IMG/VR virus record: IMGVR_UViG_3300047328_000009
Span: 1 to 30,084 of that record
Source: a virus
Direction: 5' to 3' (one strand)
Length of the DNA: 30,084 nucleotides
Position 1 is the stretch's first letter; every line of letters starts with the position of its first letter. A program made the position numbers and the translations under genes. A model generated the notes under the pieces. It was not told where the DNA came from. It saw only the letters and a list, made by a program, of their open reading frames with translations, and searched no databases. This document shows positions 2,540-29,616 of the stretch, one piece after another.

Positions 2540-3991
2540 TCAGGCGGCCTTGCCCTTCTTGCGGGCCGCCAGTTCCGCCCGCTTCGCTTCGAGCCAGACC
2601 TCATAGCCGTCGAAGCCGTCCTTGCGGAAATCATACCGGGCATCCGCGACGTCCTCGAAGGACTGACCACTGCCCTCCAGGTTCGCCGAACGTCCGGTGA
2701 ACGCCTGCCAGCGGCGGACGATCACATCGACGAATTTAGGATCGAGCTCCACCAGCCGCGCCTGCCGGCCCAGGGTCTCGCATGCGATCAGGGTCGAGCC
2801 CGAGCCGCCAAACGGGTCCAGGACCACCGCGCCGATCTGCGTCGAATTCTCGAGCATCCGCTGGATGAGCTCGACCGGCTTCATCGTCGGATGGTCAACC
2901 GACCGCTTCGGCTTTTCGACCCGGATCACGCTGGGCACCACGCCCTCGATCTCCATGCCCTTCCCGGTGATGACGAAGGACTCGGCGCCGATGCGCACCA
3001 CGATTGCCCCGTCATCGTTGACGACGATCGCCGGCGAACCGAGGTCCTGAACCGTGGTCTTCTTGCGGCCGCCGAACCAAGCGTGCGAGGCGCCAGGCTT
3101 CCACCCGTAAAGGATCGGCTCATGCTGCCACTGATAGTCCGAGCGGCCGAGCACCAGGCTCTCCTTCACCCAGACCAGGCAGCCCGACAGCTTGAAGCCG
3201 GCCTCGGCATAGGCAGCCCGAAAATTCAGGCCTTCGGTGTCGGCATGCGCGACGTAGCAGGCACCACCAGGCTGCAGGAACGCGAACACGGAACCGAAGG
3301 CGTCCCGCAGGAAGGACCGGAACTGGCCATCGCCCATGTGGTCGTTCTGGATCTTGCCCGCCAGCTTCGACTCGTAGTTGACGTTGTAGGGCGGATCGGT
3401 CCAGCAGGCGTCCGCCAGGCGGCCGGCCATCACCCGCTCGAGGTCGCCGACCGCGGTGGCGTCCCCGCAGGTCACGCGATGCGAGCCGAGGATCCACACG
3501 TCGCCAGGCTTTGACACCGGATTAGCCCAGGCCGGCGGTGCCTCGTCGGGATCCGTAAGGCCTCCACCGGAGCCGGCCATGCGCGCAAGCTCGTCGACGG
3601 AAAACCCGGTCAGCCCGACAGCGAAACCAGACGCGGCAAGGTCGTTAAGCTCGACCGCCAGCTTCGCCAGATCCCAGCCGGCATTGAGCGCCAGCTTGTT
3701 GTCGGCGATGACGTAGGCCCGCTTCTGATCCTCGGTCCAGCCGCGGCAGACCATGACAGGCGCCTCGGCGATGCCAAGTTTCTGAGCGGCCATGACGCGG
3801 CCGTGGCCGGCGATAATGGTCCCGGCTTCATCGACCAGGACCGGGTTGGTCCAGCCCCACTCGCGCATCGACGCCGCGATCTGCTCGACCTGCTCCGCAG
3901 AGTGGGTGCGGGAGTTTCGAGCGTAGAACACCAGGTCGGTCAGCGCCCGCATTTCGACCTGGGCGGCCGGCCATTCACTCGGCAGTTTCAT
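2540..3991 (-). CDS. ParB-like domain fused to a beta-class DNA methyltransferase (483 aa)
   Basis: This is predicted to transfer methyl groups from SAM to adenine-N6 or cytosine-N4 in DNA. Residues 15-75 look like a ParB/Srx-type domain (ARNSRTHSAEQVEQIAASM, then AGHGRVMAAQKLG). The catalytic motif DPPY is at 199-202 and the SAM-binding FGGSGST at 394-400. Motif IV before motif I is the beta-class order seen in CcrM-like enzymes. About 480 aa is normal for this phage and plasmid fusion family. No restriction enzyme partner is adjacent; the next gene upstream is an HNH nuclease. It overlaps that gene by 17 bases and is the last gene of the - strand operon. Likely roles are protecting phage DNA from host restriction or controlling phage genes. 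Confidence 0.9.
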   Translation of the reverse strand: MKLPSEWPAAQVEMRALTDLVFYARNSRTHSAEQVEQIAASMREWGWTNPVLVDEAGTIIAGHGRVMAAQKLGIAEAPVMVCRGWTEDQKRAYVIADNKLALNAGWDLAKLAVELNDLAASGFAVGLTGFSVDELARMAGSGGGLTDPDEAPPAWANPVSKPGDVWILGSHRVTCGDATAVGDLERVMAGRLADACWTDPPYNVNYESKLAGKIQNDHMGDGQFRSFLRDAFGSVFAFLQPGGACYVAHADTEGLNFRAAYAEAGFKLSGCLVWVKESLVLGRSDYQWQHEPILYGWKPGASHAWFGGRKKTTVQDLGSPAIVVNDDGAIVVRIGAESFVITGKGMEIEGVVPSVIRVEKPKRSVDHPTMKPVELIQRMLENSTQIGAVVLDPFGGSGSTLIACETLGRQARLVELDPKFVDVIVRRWQAFTGRSANLEGSGQSFEDVADARYDFRKDGFDGYEVWLEAKRAELAARKKGKAA

Positions 3992-6554: not shown

Positions 6555-7293
6555 CGTAGTTGCCCTCCATGATTTTCGTGAGGTTTGCAGGCTTCAGCAC
6601 CCAGTCGAAATCACAGCGCCAGCCCTGCTGATTGCCGCCTCGAAGGAAAGGGCTGGCGCGGATCTTGCCCATCAGCACCCGCCAACCATCGAGGCCGCCG
6701 ACGTCCTTCAGGCGCAGGACGATAGCCTTCCGGCGCTTGTCGGTGACGTGCTGGGCTCGAGGAAGCCCGCAGGCGATGGCGGTTTCGTTCCAGGCTTCGA
6801 CGGCAAGAGGGACTTGGGGGTTTGGGGGTTCTTCCTTCCTACCTCCTCCATCCTCCCTCCTTCCTCCTCCATCCTCCATCTGTGGAGCGTTTCTGGACTT
6901 TTGCTGAACTGGCTCGCCTTCATCATCGTCCAGTTCCGTACTGGCGGCGTCTAAAGCGGCGTAGGATCGGAACTCGACCGGCATAGGGTGAGTGTTTTTC
7001 GGCTTCCGCGGCCTTTGAAACCGCCCAAAGTTCCGCAGAACGCCATACTTACGCCCCTCGCAGTCGTAGCTTTTGATGCAGTTGGCGCCTTCCAGTTCCA
7101 CCAGCAGCGCCTCTACAGAGCCGTCCTTAGCGGGCCTCAAGCGCATGCGGAGCGTGATAGGCTTCCATTCAAAGACGCCTTGGTCGTCCGCCTCTGTCCA
7201 CAGGCCAATGTAGAAGATCTGCGCCGCGTCACTGAGCGAGACGAATGCCTCGTCGGTGAAGAGCCCTGGGTGAACGCTACGGATTCTAGCCAT
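6493..7293 (-). CDS. O-type phage replication protein (266 aa)
   Basis: The N-terminal domain (MARIRSVHPGLFTDEAFVSL ... GLWTEADDQGVFEWKP ... YGVLRNFGRFQRPRKP, residues 1-100) is typical of phage replication initiators with a winged-helix fold. The C-terminal end (GWRCDFDWVLKPANLTKIME, 225-244) is a motif widely seen in such proteins and DnaT/DnaD-like primosome proteins. The linker at 139-155 is a tandem heptapeptide EDGGGR(R/K), encoded by 15-bp direct repeats at 6842-6856 and 6863-6877. In lambda-type phages the origin lies in the equivalent place. It overlaps the upstream nuclease gene by eight bases. Expected role: binding the origin and recruiting host helicase. Confidence 0.85.
   Translation of the reverse strand: MARIRSVHPGLFTDEAFVSLSDAAQIFYIGLWTEADDQGVFEWKPITLRMRLRPAKDGSVEALLVELEGANCIKSYDCEGRKYGVLRNFGRFQRPRKPKNTHPMPVEFRSYAALDAASTELDDDEGEPVQQKSRNAPQMEDGGGRREDGGGRKEEPPNPQVPLAVEAWNETAIACGLPRAQHVTDKRRKAIVLRLKDVGGLDGWRVLMGKIRASPFLRGGNQQGWRCDFDWVLKPANLTKIMEGNYDDRKSANGIQGAIDDLRRGV
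6829..6880. repeat. polypyrimidine tract with 15-bp iterons, candidate replication origin
   Basis: The + strand is almost pure C/T for 52 bases (four A). CCTCCTCCATCCTCC occurs at 6842-6856 and again at 6863-6877, a 21-bp period. Two runs of five G sit just before it on the same strand (6816-6820 and 6824-6828). The tract is inside the replication-protein gene, as the lambda origin is inside gene O. Polypurine/polypyrimidine DNA can unwind or form a triplex. An alternative is that it only encodes a flexible linker. Confidence 0.4.
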
Positions 7294-10647: not shown

Positions 10648-10680
10648 GGCTACAACTCCACTCCATGAGGTACAGACTGA

Positions 10681-10711
10681 AAGAAAAGGGCGGACGCCGA
10701 AGCGCCCGCCG
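10681..10711 (-). terminator. strong Rho-independent terminator after the Cro-like gene
   Basis: The - strand has GGCGGGCGC-TTCG-GCGTCCGCC, a nine-base-pair stem (one G-U) closed by a stable UUCG tetraloop, followed by CTTTTCTTT. It lies about 85 bases after the stop of the Cro-like gene and before the replication operon. Those genes would therefore need read-through, antitermination or their own promoter. Confidence 0.8.
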
Positions 10712-10795
10712 AGGTAAGGGAGGAAACGCCCAGGAAGGGCACAACGGTGGGTTCGCCGTTGCCACGATCGCCCGCGTGATAAGCGCGGGAATTGG

Positions 10796-12920: not shown

Positions 12921-13915
12921 ACAAACTTGCAGTGACGACAGACGGCGAAATCATCGACGGTCTGCCGGAAGGATACGGAGGGGCGACCACCAGCCTTGCG
13001 GTGAGCCTTGCAAGGGCGGAGGTGGATCAGCAGATCGCTACCGCCCGCGCCATGCCGCGATCAATCCAGAAGGCGGTCCAGAACATCACGACGCTGGCAA
13101 CGCTGGACGATCAAAGCGCCGCCGAGTGCGTCTATGCCCTGCCGCGCGGCGAGAAGCCGATCAAGGGCCCGTCGATTCGGCTGGCCGAGATCATCGCGAG
13201 TCAGTGGGGCAATTGTCGGGTCGGGGCCCGCGTGGTGCATGTTGATCGCACCGAGAAGTTCGTCGAGGCGGAGGGCGTGTTTCACGACCTTGAGACGAAC
13301 ACCGCCACCACCGCCCGCGTGCGCCGCCGCCTTAGCACGAAGGCCGGCAAGCTGTTCGACGACGACATGATCGTGGTCACCGGCAACGCCGCCTGCTCGA
13401 TCGCCAAGCGCAATGCCATCCTTGGCGCGGTCCCGAAGGCGGTCTGGCGCAAGGCTTACGAGAGCGTCGAGCGGGTGATTGCTGGCGACGTCAAGACCCT
13501 GGCCGAGCGCCGCGAGGTGATGCTGAAAGCCTTTGCAGCCTTCGGGATCAAGCCCGAGCAGATATTCACTGCGCTTGGGGTTGCCGGCTTGGGCGATGTG
13601 AACCTCGATCACATCGTGACACTGACCGGCATGTATTCCGCCCTCAAGAGCGGCGAGGAATCGCCTGAGACGATCTTCTCGAAAGGCGAGCAGATCACCG
13701 CGCCGGCCGCACCGCCGCCGCCCGAGACGAAGCCCGCCGAAACCGGCGAGATCACCGAGGTCGGCGTGCCCGAGGCGATGGAATTGGGCCGCCAGCGGCG
13801 CCGTGACAACCTGCCCAGGCGCCCGGTTGACGGCCTGACCGAAGCCGAGGCCTCGGCGTTCCTGCAGGGCTGGGACAGCGAAGACGATCTCATGCAGCAG
13901 GCCGCGAAACGTTGA
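12917..13915 (+). CDS. conserved phage protein of the recombination region (332 aa)
   Basis: ATG at 12917 follows CAGGAGAGCGAA. Residues 40-190 form a conserved-looking core: CVYALPRGEKPIKGPSIRLA, QWGNCRVGARVV, then NAACSIAKRNAILGAVPKAV. A Pro-rich linker (TAPAAPPPPETKP, 261-273) leads to a short C-terminal helical tail. I recall this family from many proteobacterial phages, usually near genes for ssDNA annealing or exonucleases, without a firm function. It is paired with the RAMP-like 250-aa gene, 32 bases downstream. A nucleic-acid-binding role is plausible but not proven by sequence. Confidence 0.8.
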   Translation: MNKLAVTTDGEIIDGLPEGYGGATTSLAVSLARAEVDQQIATARAMPRSIQKAVQNITTLATLDDQSAAECVYALPRGEKPIKGPSIRLAEIIASQWGNCRVGARVVHVDRTEKFVEAEGVFHDLETNTATTARVRRRLSTKAGKLFDDDMIVVTGNAACSIAKRNAILGAVPKAVWRKAYESVERVIAGDVKTLAERREVMLKAFAAFGIKPEQIFTALGVAGLGDVNLDHIVTLTGMYSALKSGEESPETIFSKGEQITAPAAPPPPETKPAETGEITEVGVPEAMELGRQRRRDNLPRRPVDGLTEAEASAFLQGWDSEDDLMQQAAKR

Positions 13916-13947
13916 ACGTGCATAAGCAAACCAGACAGGAGAACGAA

Positions 13948-14700
13948 ATGGCTAAGAACGAAATGACTGCGACACTCCACATCGATCCGCTCAAGCAGGG
14001 CCGCGTCAAGATGCGGATCATCGGCTCCACGCCGATGTTCTTCAACGCGATGAGCGCCAAGGCGAAGCGATCGCTGCTGCTCGGCGGCGGCAAGAAAACG
14101 GCAGCCGAGAAGAAGGAGATCAAGCACGATCCCGAGGCCGAGTTCCGCGACAGCACATATCGGTCGCAGTCAGGCCCGACGCTGCTGGTGTTTCCGGCGC
14201 CCGGCATCAAGAACGCGATGGCCACCGCCGCACTTGTCACCGACGGCGTGAAGAAAACCGACGTGCAGCGGCTGATCTTCCTGCCGCAGGAAAAGGTCTC
14301 GATCTGGGGTCGGCCGTACCTGCGGATGGACGTGGTTCGCAGCGCCGACATGAACAAGACCCCTGACGTTCGGACTCGCGCATTCCTGCCGCGCTGGTGC
14401 GCCGAGGTGGACTTCGCATTCGTCACGCCGAGCCTGTCGGTTCACTCGATCGCCTCGCTGCTGGCGAACGCCGGGCTGGTGTCGGGGATCGGCGACTTCC
14501 GGCAGGAAAAGGGCAAAGGCAGCTATGGAACCTTCCGCATCGTCTCGGACGAGGATGACGAGCGGCTCTGGACAGAACTGACGAGCACCGAGGCCCGCGA
14601 GTGCCAGGAGGCAGCAATGGCGGACCCGCAGGCATTCGATGAAGAAACGCGCGAACTGTGGGCGATGCTGCGCCAAGAGCGCATCCGGCGCGCAGCGTGA
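13948..14700 (+). CDS. putative RAMP/Cas7-like nucleic-acid-binding protein (250 aa)
   Basis: ATG at 13948 is preceded by CAGGAGAACGAA. The 250-aa product starts with a beta strand (RVKMRIIGSTPMFFNAMSAK), then a basic loop (LLLGGGKKTAAEKKEIKHD). LLVFPAPGIKNAMATAALVT at 79-98 recalls the helix entry of RAMP folds (P-x-S-x-KGALR). GIGDFRQEKGKGSYGTF at 180-196 recalls their glycine-rich loop. These two features together suggest a Cas7-like ferredoxin-type RNA-binding fold. There is no Cas gene or CRISPR array here. The likeness is by eye and unverified. The gene ends exactly where the GG-periodic array begins. Confidence 0.65.
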   Translation: MAKNEMTATLHIDPLKQGRVKMRIIGSTPMFFNAMSAKAKRSLLLGGGKKTAAEKKEIKHDPEAEFRDSTYRSQSGPTLLVFPAPGIKNAMATAALVTDGVKKTDVQRLIFLPQEKVSIWGRPYLRMDVVRSADMNKTPDVRTRAFLPRWCAEVDFAFVTPSLSVHSIASLLANAGLVSGIGDFRQEKGKGSYGTFRIVSDEDDERLWTELTSTEARECQEAAMADPQAFDEETRELWAMLRQERIRRAA

Positions 14701-15117
14701 TGAGGTTGGTCGCGGAACGTCATGGGCCGGCAAGGCAAGATCGGCAAGGCGAGGCGAGTCATGGACAGGCGGTCGCGGTTTGGCTTCGCACGTCGGGGCT
14801 GGGTGAGTTGAGGCGCGTTGAGGTGCGGCGAGGTCTGGCGGTCCTGGTCGGGCCGGGCCTGCAGCGGAGAGGCACGACATGGCGAGTCGCGTTCAGTTCC
14901 GGCTGGGCGGTCAAGGTACGTCGTGGCTTTGCTTGGCGTGGTGGCGAATGGTCTGGCGACGCAGGGCGGTCATGGTTCGCAACGGCAAGGCGCGGATGGG
15001 TGCGGCTAGGCATGGGCTGGCGGTCTTGGCGCAATGTGCGGTGGAAAGGTGAGTTGCGGCCTGCTGCGTCTAGGCGGTCTAGGAATGGCTGGTTGAGATC
15101 TGGAGAGGAAAGGCAAG
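14701..15117 (+). repeat. array of 5-nt periodic GG with six GGCGGTCNNGG motifs
   Basis: The 417 bases between two genes are filled by a degenerate repeat in which G or GG occurs every five bases (for example GG at 14984, 14989, 14994, 14999, 15004, 15009, 15014 and 15019). GGCGGTCNNGG occurs at 14768, 14837, 14906, 14965, 15019 and 15073, spaced 69, 69, 59, 54 and 54. In each motif the first and last GG are nine bases apart, so the 5-nt phase moves back by one. The three bases between GG pairs vary. A possible reading frame through it has no other sign of coding. Confidence 0.9.
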
Positions 15118-15645
15118 ATGGCTAAGTTTGACAGAACTTACCGACAGAAAGTCATCGACGAATACTTGAACGCAACGGGCGAAAACACCTTTGTCCCGGC
15201 CGCTTTCATCGACTGGCTGCGCGATCAGCCAGATCACCGGGTCTATCCGGTTTTCTTCGGCAAGTCCGACGAGGATGCGGCGGCAGAATACCGGATCAAC
15301 CTGGCTCGGCAGTTCGTCAGCGGATTGCGGGTGAAGATCCGCTTGACCGCCACGACGATCGACGAGAGTGGGCGCGAGGTGAAGGTGACGGAAAGTGCGG
15401 TGACCGCGGTGCGGGTGCCAGCCTTCTATTCACCACTGAGCGAGCGAAAGGGCGGCGGCGGTTATCACGCTTTCGACTCCGAGGATCCCGCGGCATTGCG
15501 CGAGCTGCGCCGGCAGGCGGCGACCGACTTGCGCCGGTTCATCCACCGGCACGAAGGCATCGCCAAGTTGAGCGGGATCTCGCTCGAAGCAATCAAAGCC
15601 ATCGCCGCGTCGTTCGACGCGCTCGATGTCAGCGAGGCGGCGTGA
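15118..15645 (+). CDS. conserved phage protein next to the repeat array (175 aa)
   Basis: ATG at 15118 has GGAGAGGAAAGG upstream, the ribosome site being part of the array's end. The 175-aa product (DEYLNATGENTFVPAAFIDW, YPVFFGKSDEDAAAEYRINL) has an alpha/beta character with a glycine loop (ERKGGGGYHAF) and a helical C-terminal region (RELRRQAATDLRRFIHRHEG). No catalytic motif is clear. I associate this type with the same conserved phage gene neighbourhood as the two preceding genes. The stop overlaps the next ATG. Confidence 0.7.
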   Translation: MAKFDRTYRQKVIDEYLNATGENTFVPAAFIDWLRDQPDHRVYPVFFGKSDEDAAAEYRINLARQFVSGLRVKIRLTATTIDESGREVKVTESAVTAVRVPAFYSPLSERKGGGGYHAFDSEDPAALRELRRQAATDLRRFIHRHEGIAKLSGISLEAIKAIAASFDALDVSEAA

Positions 15646-25367: not shown

Positions 25368-26048
25368 TCAGACCTTCGAAGCGCCGCCGAAGGACGCGGC
25401 GGTGGGGTTGAGCGAATGCGACGCGGACCACCGGTCCTTGTCCGGAACGAACTCGCCGAGCCCCCTGATGAAGTTTGCGACGCCGCCGGCGAACACGGTC
25501 GTGTTGATAAAGGGCTCGACCAGTAGCGCGAGGATCTGCCCGGTGCCGTCGGCGGTCGCGGACTCGGTGACGCGGTGCAGCGAGTAGCGATTAGGGCTGC
25601 CCGCCTTGAACAAGCCCACCATGTCGCCGACCAGGACCTGGAAGCCGACAGGGAGCCGCGACGCGCCAGCCGAGGACATGGCGATCGTCCGCACATCCGG
25701 AAAGGACGTGATCGAGGCGGTGCCGTTGAACGCGCCACCACCGGCCCGGGTCAGCGCCAGGACCTGCGACTCGAGGGCATAAGCGCCAGGCCAGAACGCC
25801 TTCGGGTGATGAGCAAGGAACGTCCGGCCGCCGCCGCGCATCGACTCCCACCAGGCGGACAGTTCGTTCTTTTCCGCGAGCGTGAGAGCGCCGGTCTGCC
25901 AGGTCAGGTCCCAGAAAGGATCGGCGACATCGGTGACGGTCATGGCGCCGCCGCGGGTTCGGGATCCCGAGGTCTGCCAACTGAGGACCAGGTCGCCGTC
26001 GGCCGCCTGCGCGAAGGCCGGCAGCGATCGAGGGTAGGTGATCGGCAT
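25368..26048 (-). CDS. distal tail protein-like (226 aa)
   Basis: The 226-aa product begins MPITYPRSLPAFAQAADGDL and has beta-rich sequence with RGGGRTFLAHHPKAFWPGAY, then LPVGFQVLVGDMVGLFKAGS. Its size, all-beta look and place just after the tape measure match the DUF2460/Dit-type proteins that form the first ring of the distal tail. I do not see a decisive motif. It may instead be a second hub protein. Confidence 0.6.
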   Translation of the reverse strand: MPITYPRSLPAFAQAADGDLVLSWQTSGSRTRGGAMTVTDVADPFWDLTWQTGALTLAEKNELSAWWESMRGGGRTFLAHHPKAFWPGAYALESQVLALTRAGGGAFNGTASITSFPDVRTIAMSSAGASRLPVGFQVLVGDMVGLFKAGSPNRYSLHRVTESATADGTGQILALLVEPFINTTVFAGGVANFIRGLGEFVPDKDRWSASHSLNPTAASFGGASKV

Positions 26049-29041: not shown

Positions 29042-29616
29042 TAGCCGACAACCTCATGTGCCAAGAGCGCCGCGTAGGACGCCCGCAGTTTGACCTCGCT
29101 CGTGCGGCGCGATGAGCGGCCGATGCGCTTTGCAGATGCGATGATTTCGTGCCCAAGCTCCTGCCTGATGATACGCAGGGCATTGTCCTTCTCGGCGTCC
29201 CAGGCTGGCCGCATGAAGGGCTGCGGACCGTGCCTCGAGGTCCCGAACTCGAGAAAGTGCGCATGCGGCGCCTGAGTGCTCGGACCGACGAAGATCTCCG
29301 CAAAGGTCTGCCCAGTAGCAGCACGCCGAGCATTGCGCAGCGCGGTCCGAGCGGCCGACACGCCGAGGCCGGCTCGCAGCGCCGCACTGAACTCTGCCTT
29401 GCCGACCGCATTCTTCAGCTTCGTCGAAACAGAGATCGACCGCTTCAGGTTGCCGCTGCCAGGGCGGACCGGCGCCATCTGGCGAGCCTTCTCGGCGACC
29501 GGCTCTGCCGCCTTCTTCAGAACCCGCACCAGGGTTGCCTTTGCAACGCTCTTCGGCAGCTGCCCGAGTGCCAGGTCGAGCTCGCGGAAGCCCGAGATCG
29601 AGACGACGGTCTTCAT
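29041..29616 (-). CDS. HK97 gp10-like head-tail protein (191 aa)
   Basis: ATG at 29616 chosen; the frame is open further, but upstream sequence belongs to the neighbour. The product (AAEPVAEKARQMAPVRPGSG, AEIFVGPSTQAPHAHFLEFG, TSRHGPQPFMRPAWDAEKDN) has the gp10 signature 'HFLEFGT...P.PFMRPAW'. It is a neck or tail-completion component. The region RTALRNARRAATGQTFAE is an insert compared with shorter members. Overlaps its neighbours by 4 and 1 bases. Confidence 0.88.
   Translation of the reverse strand: MKTVVSISGFRELDLALGQLPKSVAKATLVRVLKKAAEPVAEKARQMAPVRPGSGNLKRSISVSTKLKNAVGKAEFSAALRAGLGVSAARTALRNARRAATGQTFAEIFVGPSTQAPHAHFLEFGTSRHGPQPFMRPAWDAEKDNALRIIRQELGHEIIASAKRIGRSSRRTSEVKLRASYAALLAHEVVG

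Follow-up and report, generated by a model that had tools for sequence, protein, structure and literature searches.

A GG-periodic array beside a Cas7-like gene very probably encodes VIPR guide RNAs in a phage genome

The DNA analysed here, a stretch of 30,084 nucleotides from a viral record of IMG/VR (the window), carries between two genes an array of G-rich pentamers (14708–15117, plus strand) which very probably codes for vrRNAs, the guide RNAs of a VIPR system, and the Vipr-RNA complex would bind genes of rival phages and probably repress them. The array grammar, the link to a RAMP gene, the homology of that gene to the Vipr of Escherichia phage SUSP1 and one-nucleotide-skip targeting at the level of the clade were all observed directly. 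VIPR (Viral Interference Programmable Repeat) is known from one 2026 preprint, with experiments mainly on type II, which describes it as a CRISPR-like phage weapon silencing rival phages and composed of the protein Vipr and vrRNAs of alternating GGY and NN (PMC13142463). According to that source, vrRNAs recognise double-stranded DNA through a code that is noncontiguous, two bases being read and one skipped; Vipr is a RAMP homolog with an RRM core, a G-loop and a thumb, and guides have about 9–16 repeats (PMC13142463).

Structure of the array

An earlier note, made from the sequence alone, had described the gap between the two genes (14701–15117) as DNA in which G returns every five bases. Autocorrelation bore this out: 118 G-G pairs were found at lag 5, against a mean of 81.6 (sd 5.1, maximum 97; z = 7.2) in 1000 dinucleotide-preserving shuffles, none of which reached 118, and G-G pairs were also above expectation at lags 10, 15 and 20. 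The motif GGCGGTCNNGG starts at 14768, 14837, 14906, 14965, 15019 and 15073, with spacings of 69, 69, 59, 54 and 54, all of the form 5n-1, and with a different NN in each of the six copies, exactly as the note had it. One extra copy of GGCGGTCNNGG in the window, at 25551, apparently arose by chance. The true unit is an NNGGY pentamer, with a tetramer GGTC interposed every 10–13 pentamers (at 14771, 14840, 14909, 14968, 15022 and 15076); the phase drops by one at each motif, as had been noticed, because the inserted tetramer is four bases long. The first GGTC (14708–14711) was assigned by comparison with the related locus L001, and some pentamers of the window have a single G (NNGTC, NNGTT). 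An additional step of nine bases, reported at 14734–14743, is indeed present; here the 4-nt unit is AAGA rather than GGTC and probably reflects an indel.

Arrays were parsed with a simple state model of NNGGY pentamers and an inserted tetramer GGTC or GGTT. Across the clade, the third base of the unit is G in 96% and the fifth is C or T in 93%. The window's array begins with an irregular module 0 (14712–14770), which contains the AAGA unit, followed on the same plus strand by five regular modules of 13, 13, 11, 10 and 10 pentamers, where the mode of the clade is 8–10. Their predicted guides are GC.TT.TT.AC.GG.TG.GA.GA.GC.GA.GC.GA.CT (module 1, 14775–14839), CT.CG.CG.CT.GC.GA.AC.AT.GA.GC.CA.CC.TG (module 2, 14844–14908), AA.AC.GT.TT.TT.GT.GG.AT.CT.GA.AG (module 3, 14913–14967), AT.TC.AC.AA.GC.TG.GC.TA.AT.CT (module 4, 14972–15021) and TT.GC.GT.GT.AA.GA.GC.CT.GC.TA (module 5, 15026–15075). 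Module 6 (15080–15117) is truncated or degenerate, has no closing GGTC, and reaches into the next gene's ribosome-binding region.

Many arrays open with the tetramer and have only a few bases after the last one, and we infer that GGCGGTC ends one guide and begins the next, with GGTC as boundary or handle. In relatives from other clades, GGCAGGC or GGCTGGC apparently replaces the GGTC punctuation. Array length and content vary among relatives while the grammar is kept, and the loci L051, L053 and L058 have common modules in different order. A very long array, of 2470 bp and with 45 punctuation units, lies at 2032–4501 of L099. A 4-nt clade-specific punctuation was not found in the main text of PMC13142463.

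The RNA of the window's array is predicted to fold no more stably than shuffled sequences (z = 0.87); no structured 3′ tail was found between its modules, nor any consensus promoter or terminator within it. An Rfam search found no hammerhead or other known RNA there. A CRISPR array was also considered and rejected: near-identical repeats of 20–50 bp with spacers are absent, and only an element of 4–7 bp is constant between modules.

The Vipr protein and its linkage to the array

The gene immediately upstream (13912–14700, plus strand, 262 aa) encodes, as judged from its predicted fold and profile matches, a Vipr protein, a Cas7-like RAMP. It was called with a TTG start, and a downstream ATG (that of MAKNEM) is a possible alternative. 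An AlphaFold2 model built from 52 relatives reached a pLDDT of 87.4; Foldseek returned Csm3/Cas7 RAMP proteins throughout the top of its list, with 46 chains at E ≤ 1e-3, and realignment to Csm3/Cas7 gave Z 9.1 and an rmsd of 3.4 over about 150–155 residues. When the family profile was compared with the PDB, a single chain had E < 1e-3, namely 36pp_D, "SUSP1 Vipr protein" (E 3e-6), and hhalign against the SUSP1 vipr gene gave E 2.4e-9. The part aligned with SUSP1 Vipr is the glycine-rich NAG..GxGDxR loop, corresponding to the G-loop region. Cas7-like RAMP proteins oligomerise on their guide RNA; for this reason the suggestion that the array is a scaffold for a polymer-forming protein was nearly right, and the note's alternative suggestion of a guide-like RNA is well supported.

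A search of IMG/VR with the upstream gene yielded 237 candidate stretches, of which 80 were kept; a second set of loci was fetched by the array pattern alone, and most of these also carry vipr and the 175-aa downstream gene. Relatives of vipr occur in 150 loci, and 149 of these also hold an array, the sole exception (L004) being cut by the contig end inside the array; tracts of this type, which the earlier note mentioned for other phages, do exist. The array lies on the strand of vipr in all 199 arrays. Its position varies: it is found between vipr and the 175-aa gene, after the second gene, or both. A GC-rich terminator-like hairpin just after the vipr stop codon and before the array was seen in L013, L035, L051, L064 and L072; such a hairpin is common in relatives and was not seen between vipr and the array in the window.

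The 175-aa gene (15118–15645 in the window, plus strand) adjoins vipr or the array in 140 loci of the clade. The AF2 model of its protein has a pLDDT of 88.6, and a fold search against the PDB found nothing better than E 0.6. Comparison with the second (accessory) gene of SUSP1 detected no relation. By its location, the gene is a candidate vap (VIPR accessory protein).

Distant vipr relatives were also found in well-studied actinophages, where they are annotated as hypothetical (gp39 and gp45 of Gordonia phage UmaThurman and Mycobacterium phage Brocalys). VIPR-like arrays with GGCAGGC lie beside them, at 6650–6975 in UmaThurman (L205) and at about 2660–2890 in Brocalys (L232).

Targeting code

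Targets were searched with 855 distinct modules on both strands of 3.36 Mb of fetched phage DNA, arrays being masked. Skips of 0 to 3 bases between dinucleotides were compared, with reversed dinucleotide order as control and -log10 of a binomial probability as score. A score of at least 9 was reached by 23 modules with a skip of 1 (control 4), against 4 (control 3), 2 (control 3) and 4 (control 3) for skips of 0, 2 and 3; the 23 modules are partly non-independent, as several arrays carry versions of one guide. At a score of at least 10, nine modules remained with a skip of 1 (control 0) and none with the other skips, for which the control gave one hit each at skips 2 and 3. When the longest frame was read, the skipped base fell on the wobble base of the codon in 20 of the 23 best skip-1 matches, against 0 of 4 in the control. 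Targets include genes for the large and small terminase subunits, the major head protein and the major tail protein, and for none of the 23 modules did a target lie within a locus carrying the same module. Homologous targets vary mainly at the skipped bases, and the best matches usually start with the dinucleotide that directly follows GGTC, many of them ending one or two dinucleotides early. One-nucleotide-skip targeting is thus shown at clade level.

Between closely related modules (104 non-independent pairs), the rates of difference are 5.5% and 4.2% at the two N positions, 1.1% at the first G, 6.8% at the second G and 9.9% at Y. The NN thus vary widely between guides but change little along one guide lineage, which is what positions bearing information should do. 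This slower drift of NN, compared with the fourth and fifth bases of the scaffold, was not found in the main text of PMC13142463.

In the proposed mechanism, the GGY of each pentamer would hold one Vipr subunit, the NN would pair with target DNA so that two bases are read and one skipped, and GGTC would form the border between neighbouring guides. The complex would then bind genes of rival phages, in this clade those for terminase, capsid and tail proteins as well as other vipr genes, and probably repress them. Transcription into small RNA, formation of the ribonucleoprotein and repression of the target would proceed by analogy with the account in PMC13142463.

Alternative explanations

The strong five-base period would also suit a DNA platform, that is, an origin, recombination or packaging site bound by a DNA-polymerising protein, in which the bases between the Gs would be uninformative. 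The NN match genes of other phages when read by one particular rule, and close relatives keep them better than the scaffold, which makes such a platform very improbable; the origin or recombination site proposed in the earlier note found no support. Still less probable, to the point of being nearly negligible, is a protein-coding gene in the gap, to which an open frame from 14700 to 15125 could point, with about 141 open codons and an ATG at the vipr stop codon. This frame overlaps both neighbours. Against it, the period of five crosses all three frames, and relatives hold to the grammar although their arrays differ in length and content. Chance alone sometimes leaves G-rich arrays open, with at least 135 open codons in 17 of 264 array frames, and on this count the coding gene was rejected.

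A VIPR array could instead serve mainly in autoregulation or in control of host genes rather than in conflict between phages. For the guides of the window itself, targets are tentative, and the target searches were confined to phage DNA, which leaves some room for this; the clear targets in the clade are however phage structural, packaging or vipr genes, with none in a locus that itself carries the module, and we regard this function as improbable. Guides directed at rival phages are the preferred reading.

A guide matching a rival vipr gene

The Vipr of L001, the closest relative, is 96% identical to that of the window. The first guide of L001 (its module 1), GA.GA.AC.CG.GA.CT.TG.GC, matches the window's vipr gene by the one-nucleotide-skip rule in 16 of 16 bases, in codon phase, at 14641–14663 (plus strand), and matches vipr equally well, again in codon phase, in L003, L005, L008 and L009. 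Its best site in the whole L001 record is the phage's own vipr, where three bases fail to match, two of these belonging to the first dinucleotide. The sequences fit a guide aimed at rivals, with self-escape of its carrier. They are unlikely to have arisen by chance, the expectation after all modules tested being, by our rough estimate, a few per cent. A self-sparing anti-VIPR guide was not found in the main text of PMC13142463.

Guides of the window

Target scans covered the regular modules 1–5 of the window. In L216 and L218, module 1 matches 18 of 20 bases in the 3′-terminal part of a phage gene of AAA type (AFLAGWDEAD), and the L001 version of this guide matches the site in 20 of 20, in codon phase. 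Module 4 matches 18 of 18 bases over its first nine dinucleotides in one gene of L228 and L229, antisense and with the skip at the wobble position. Both are tentative targets, near chance level for so large a collection of sequences. For modules 2–5, no match with up to three mismatches was found in 48 related phage records, and modules 2, 3 and 5 gave no convincing target. Exact searches gave candidates that were set aside: matches of module 2 to LRRLADAIEA-like peptides fall in unrelated proteins and were judged chance, the one match of module 3, in L215, is out of phase, and the single match of module 5 is in a doubtful frame.

Comparison with known systems

The window's locus resembles the VIPR of SUSP1 in being phage-borne, in having a RAMP protein akin to SUSP1 Vipr in sequence and fold, in GGY/NN pentamers, in a one-nucleotide-skip code with the skip at the wobble base (here at clade level), and in rival-phage targets that include vipr genes. 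Four vrRNAs are reported for SUSP1 (PMC13142463); our scan of SUSP1 for YNNGG runs found four tracts, between 27613 and 27968 and at 29164–29228 on the minus strand, equal in number. In SUSP1, of type II, the vrRNAs are separate and every one ends in a structured 3′ tail, whereas the guides of the window lie head to tail, split only by GGTC (GGCGGTC), and its accessory gene has no detectable relation to that of SUSP1. A form with "staggered arrays with overlapping vrRNAs" is named in the preprint (PMC13142463), and this staggered form, as far as its mention allows comparison, may be the array form of the window.

Type III CRISPR Csm3/Cas7 is similar in predicted protein fold and, if the model holds, in RNA-guided recognition with regularly interrupted pairing. 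In class 1 CRISPR the pairing breaks at every sixth position; here two bases are read and one skipped.

The VIPR code is thus independently supported on a different clade, with about 850 guide modules. New points are the proposed role of the punctuation as guide boundary, the arrays in Gordonia and Mycobacterium phages and the apparent anti-vipr guide with self-escape, and guide borders, guide acquisition and phage-phage conflict become directly testable. More speculatively, and with rather less than even confidence, these loci might form a VIPR subtype with shared 4-base punctuation (GGTC, or AGGC and TGGC in other clades) that ends and starts guides, cassette-like gain and loss of modules, and combat of VIPR against VIPR in which the attacker's vipr has diverged at the targeted bases.

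Elsewhere in the window, Rfam matched the suhB/mmgR small RNA family (RF00519, 45.5 bits) at 10674–10747 on the minus strand, and a gene at 2540–3991, also on the minus strand, encodes a ParB-like nuclease domain fused to a DNA methyltransferase.
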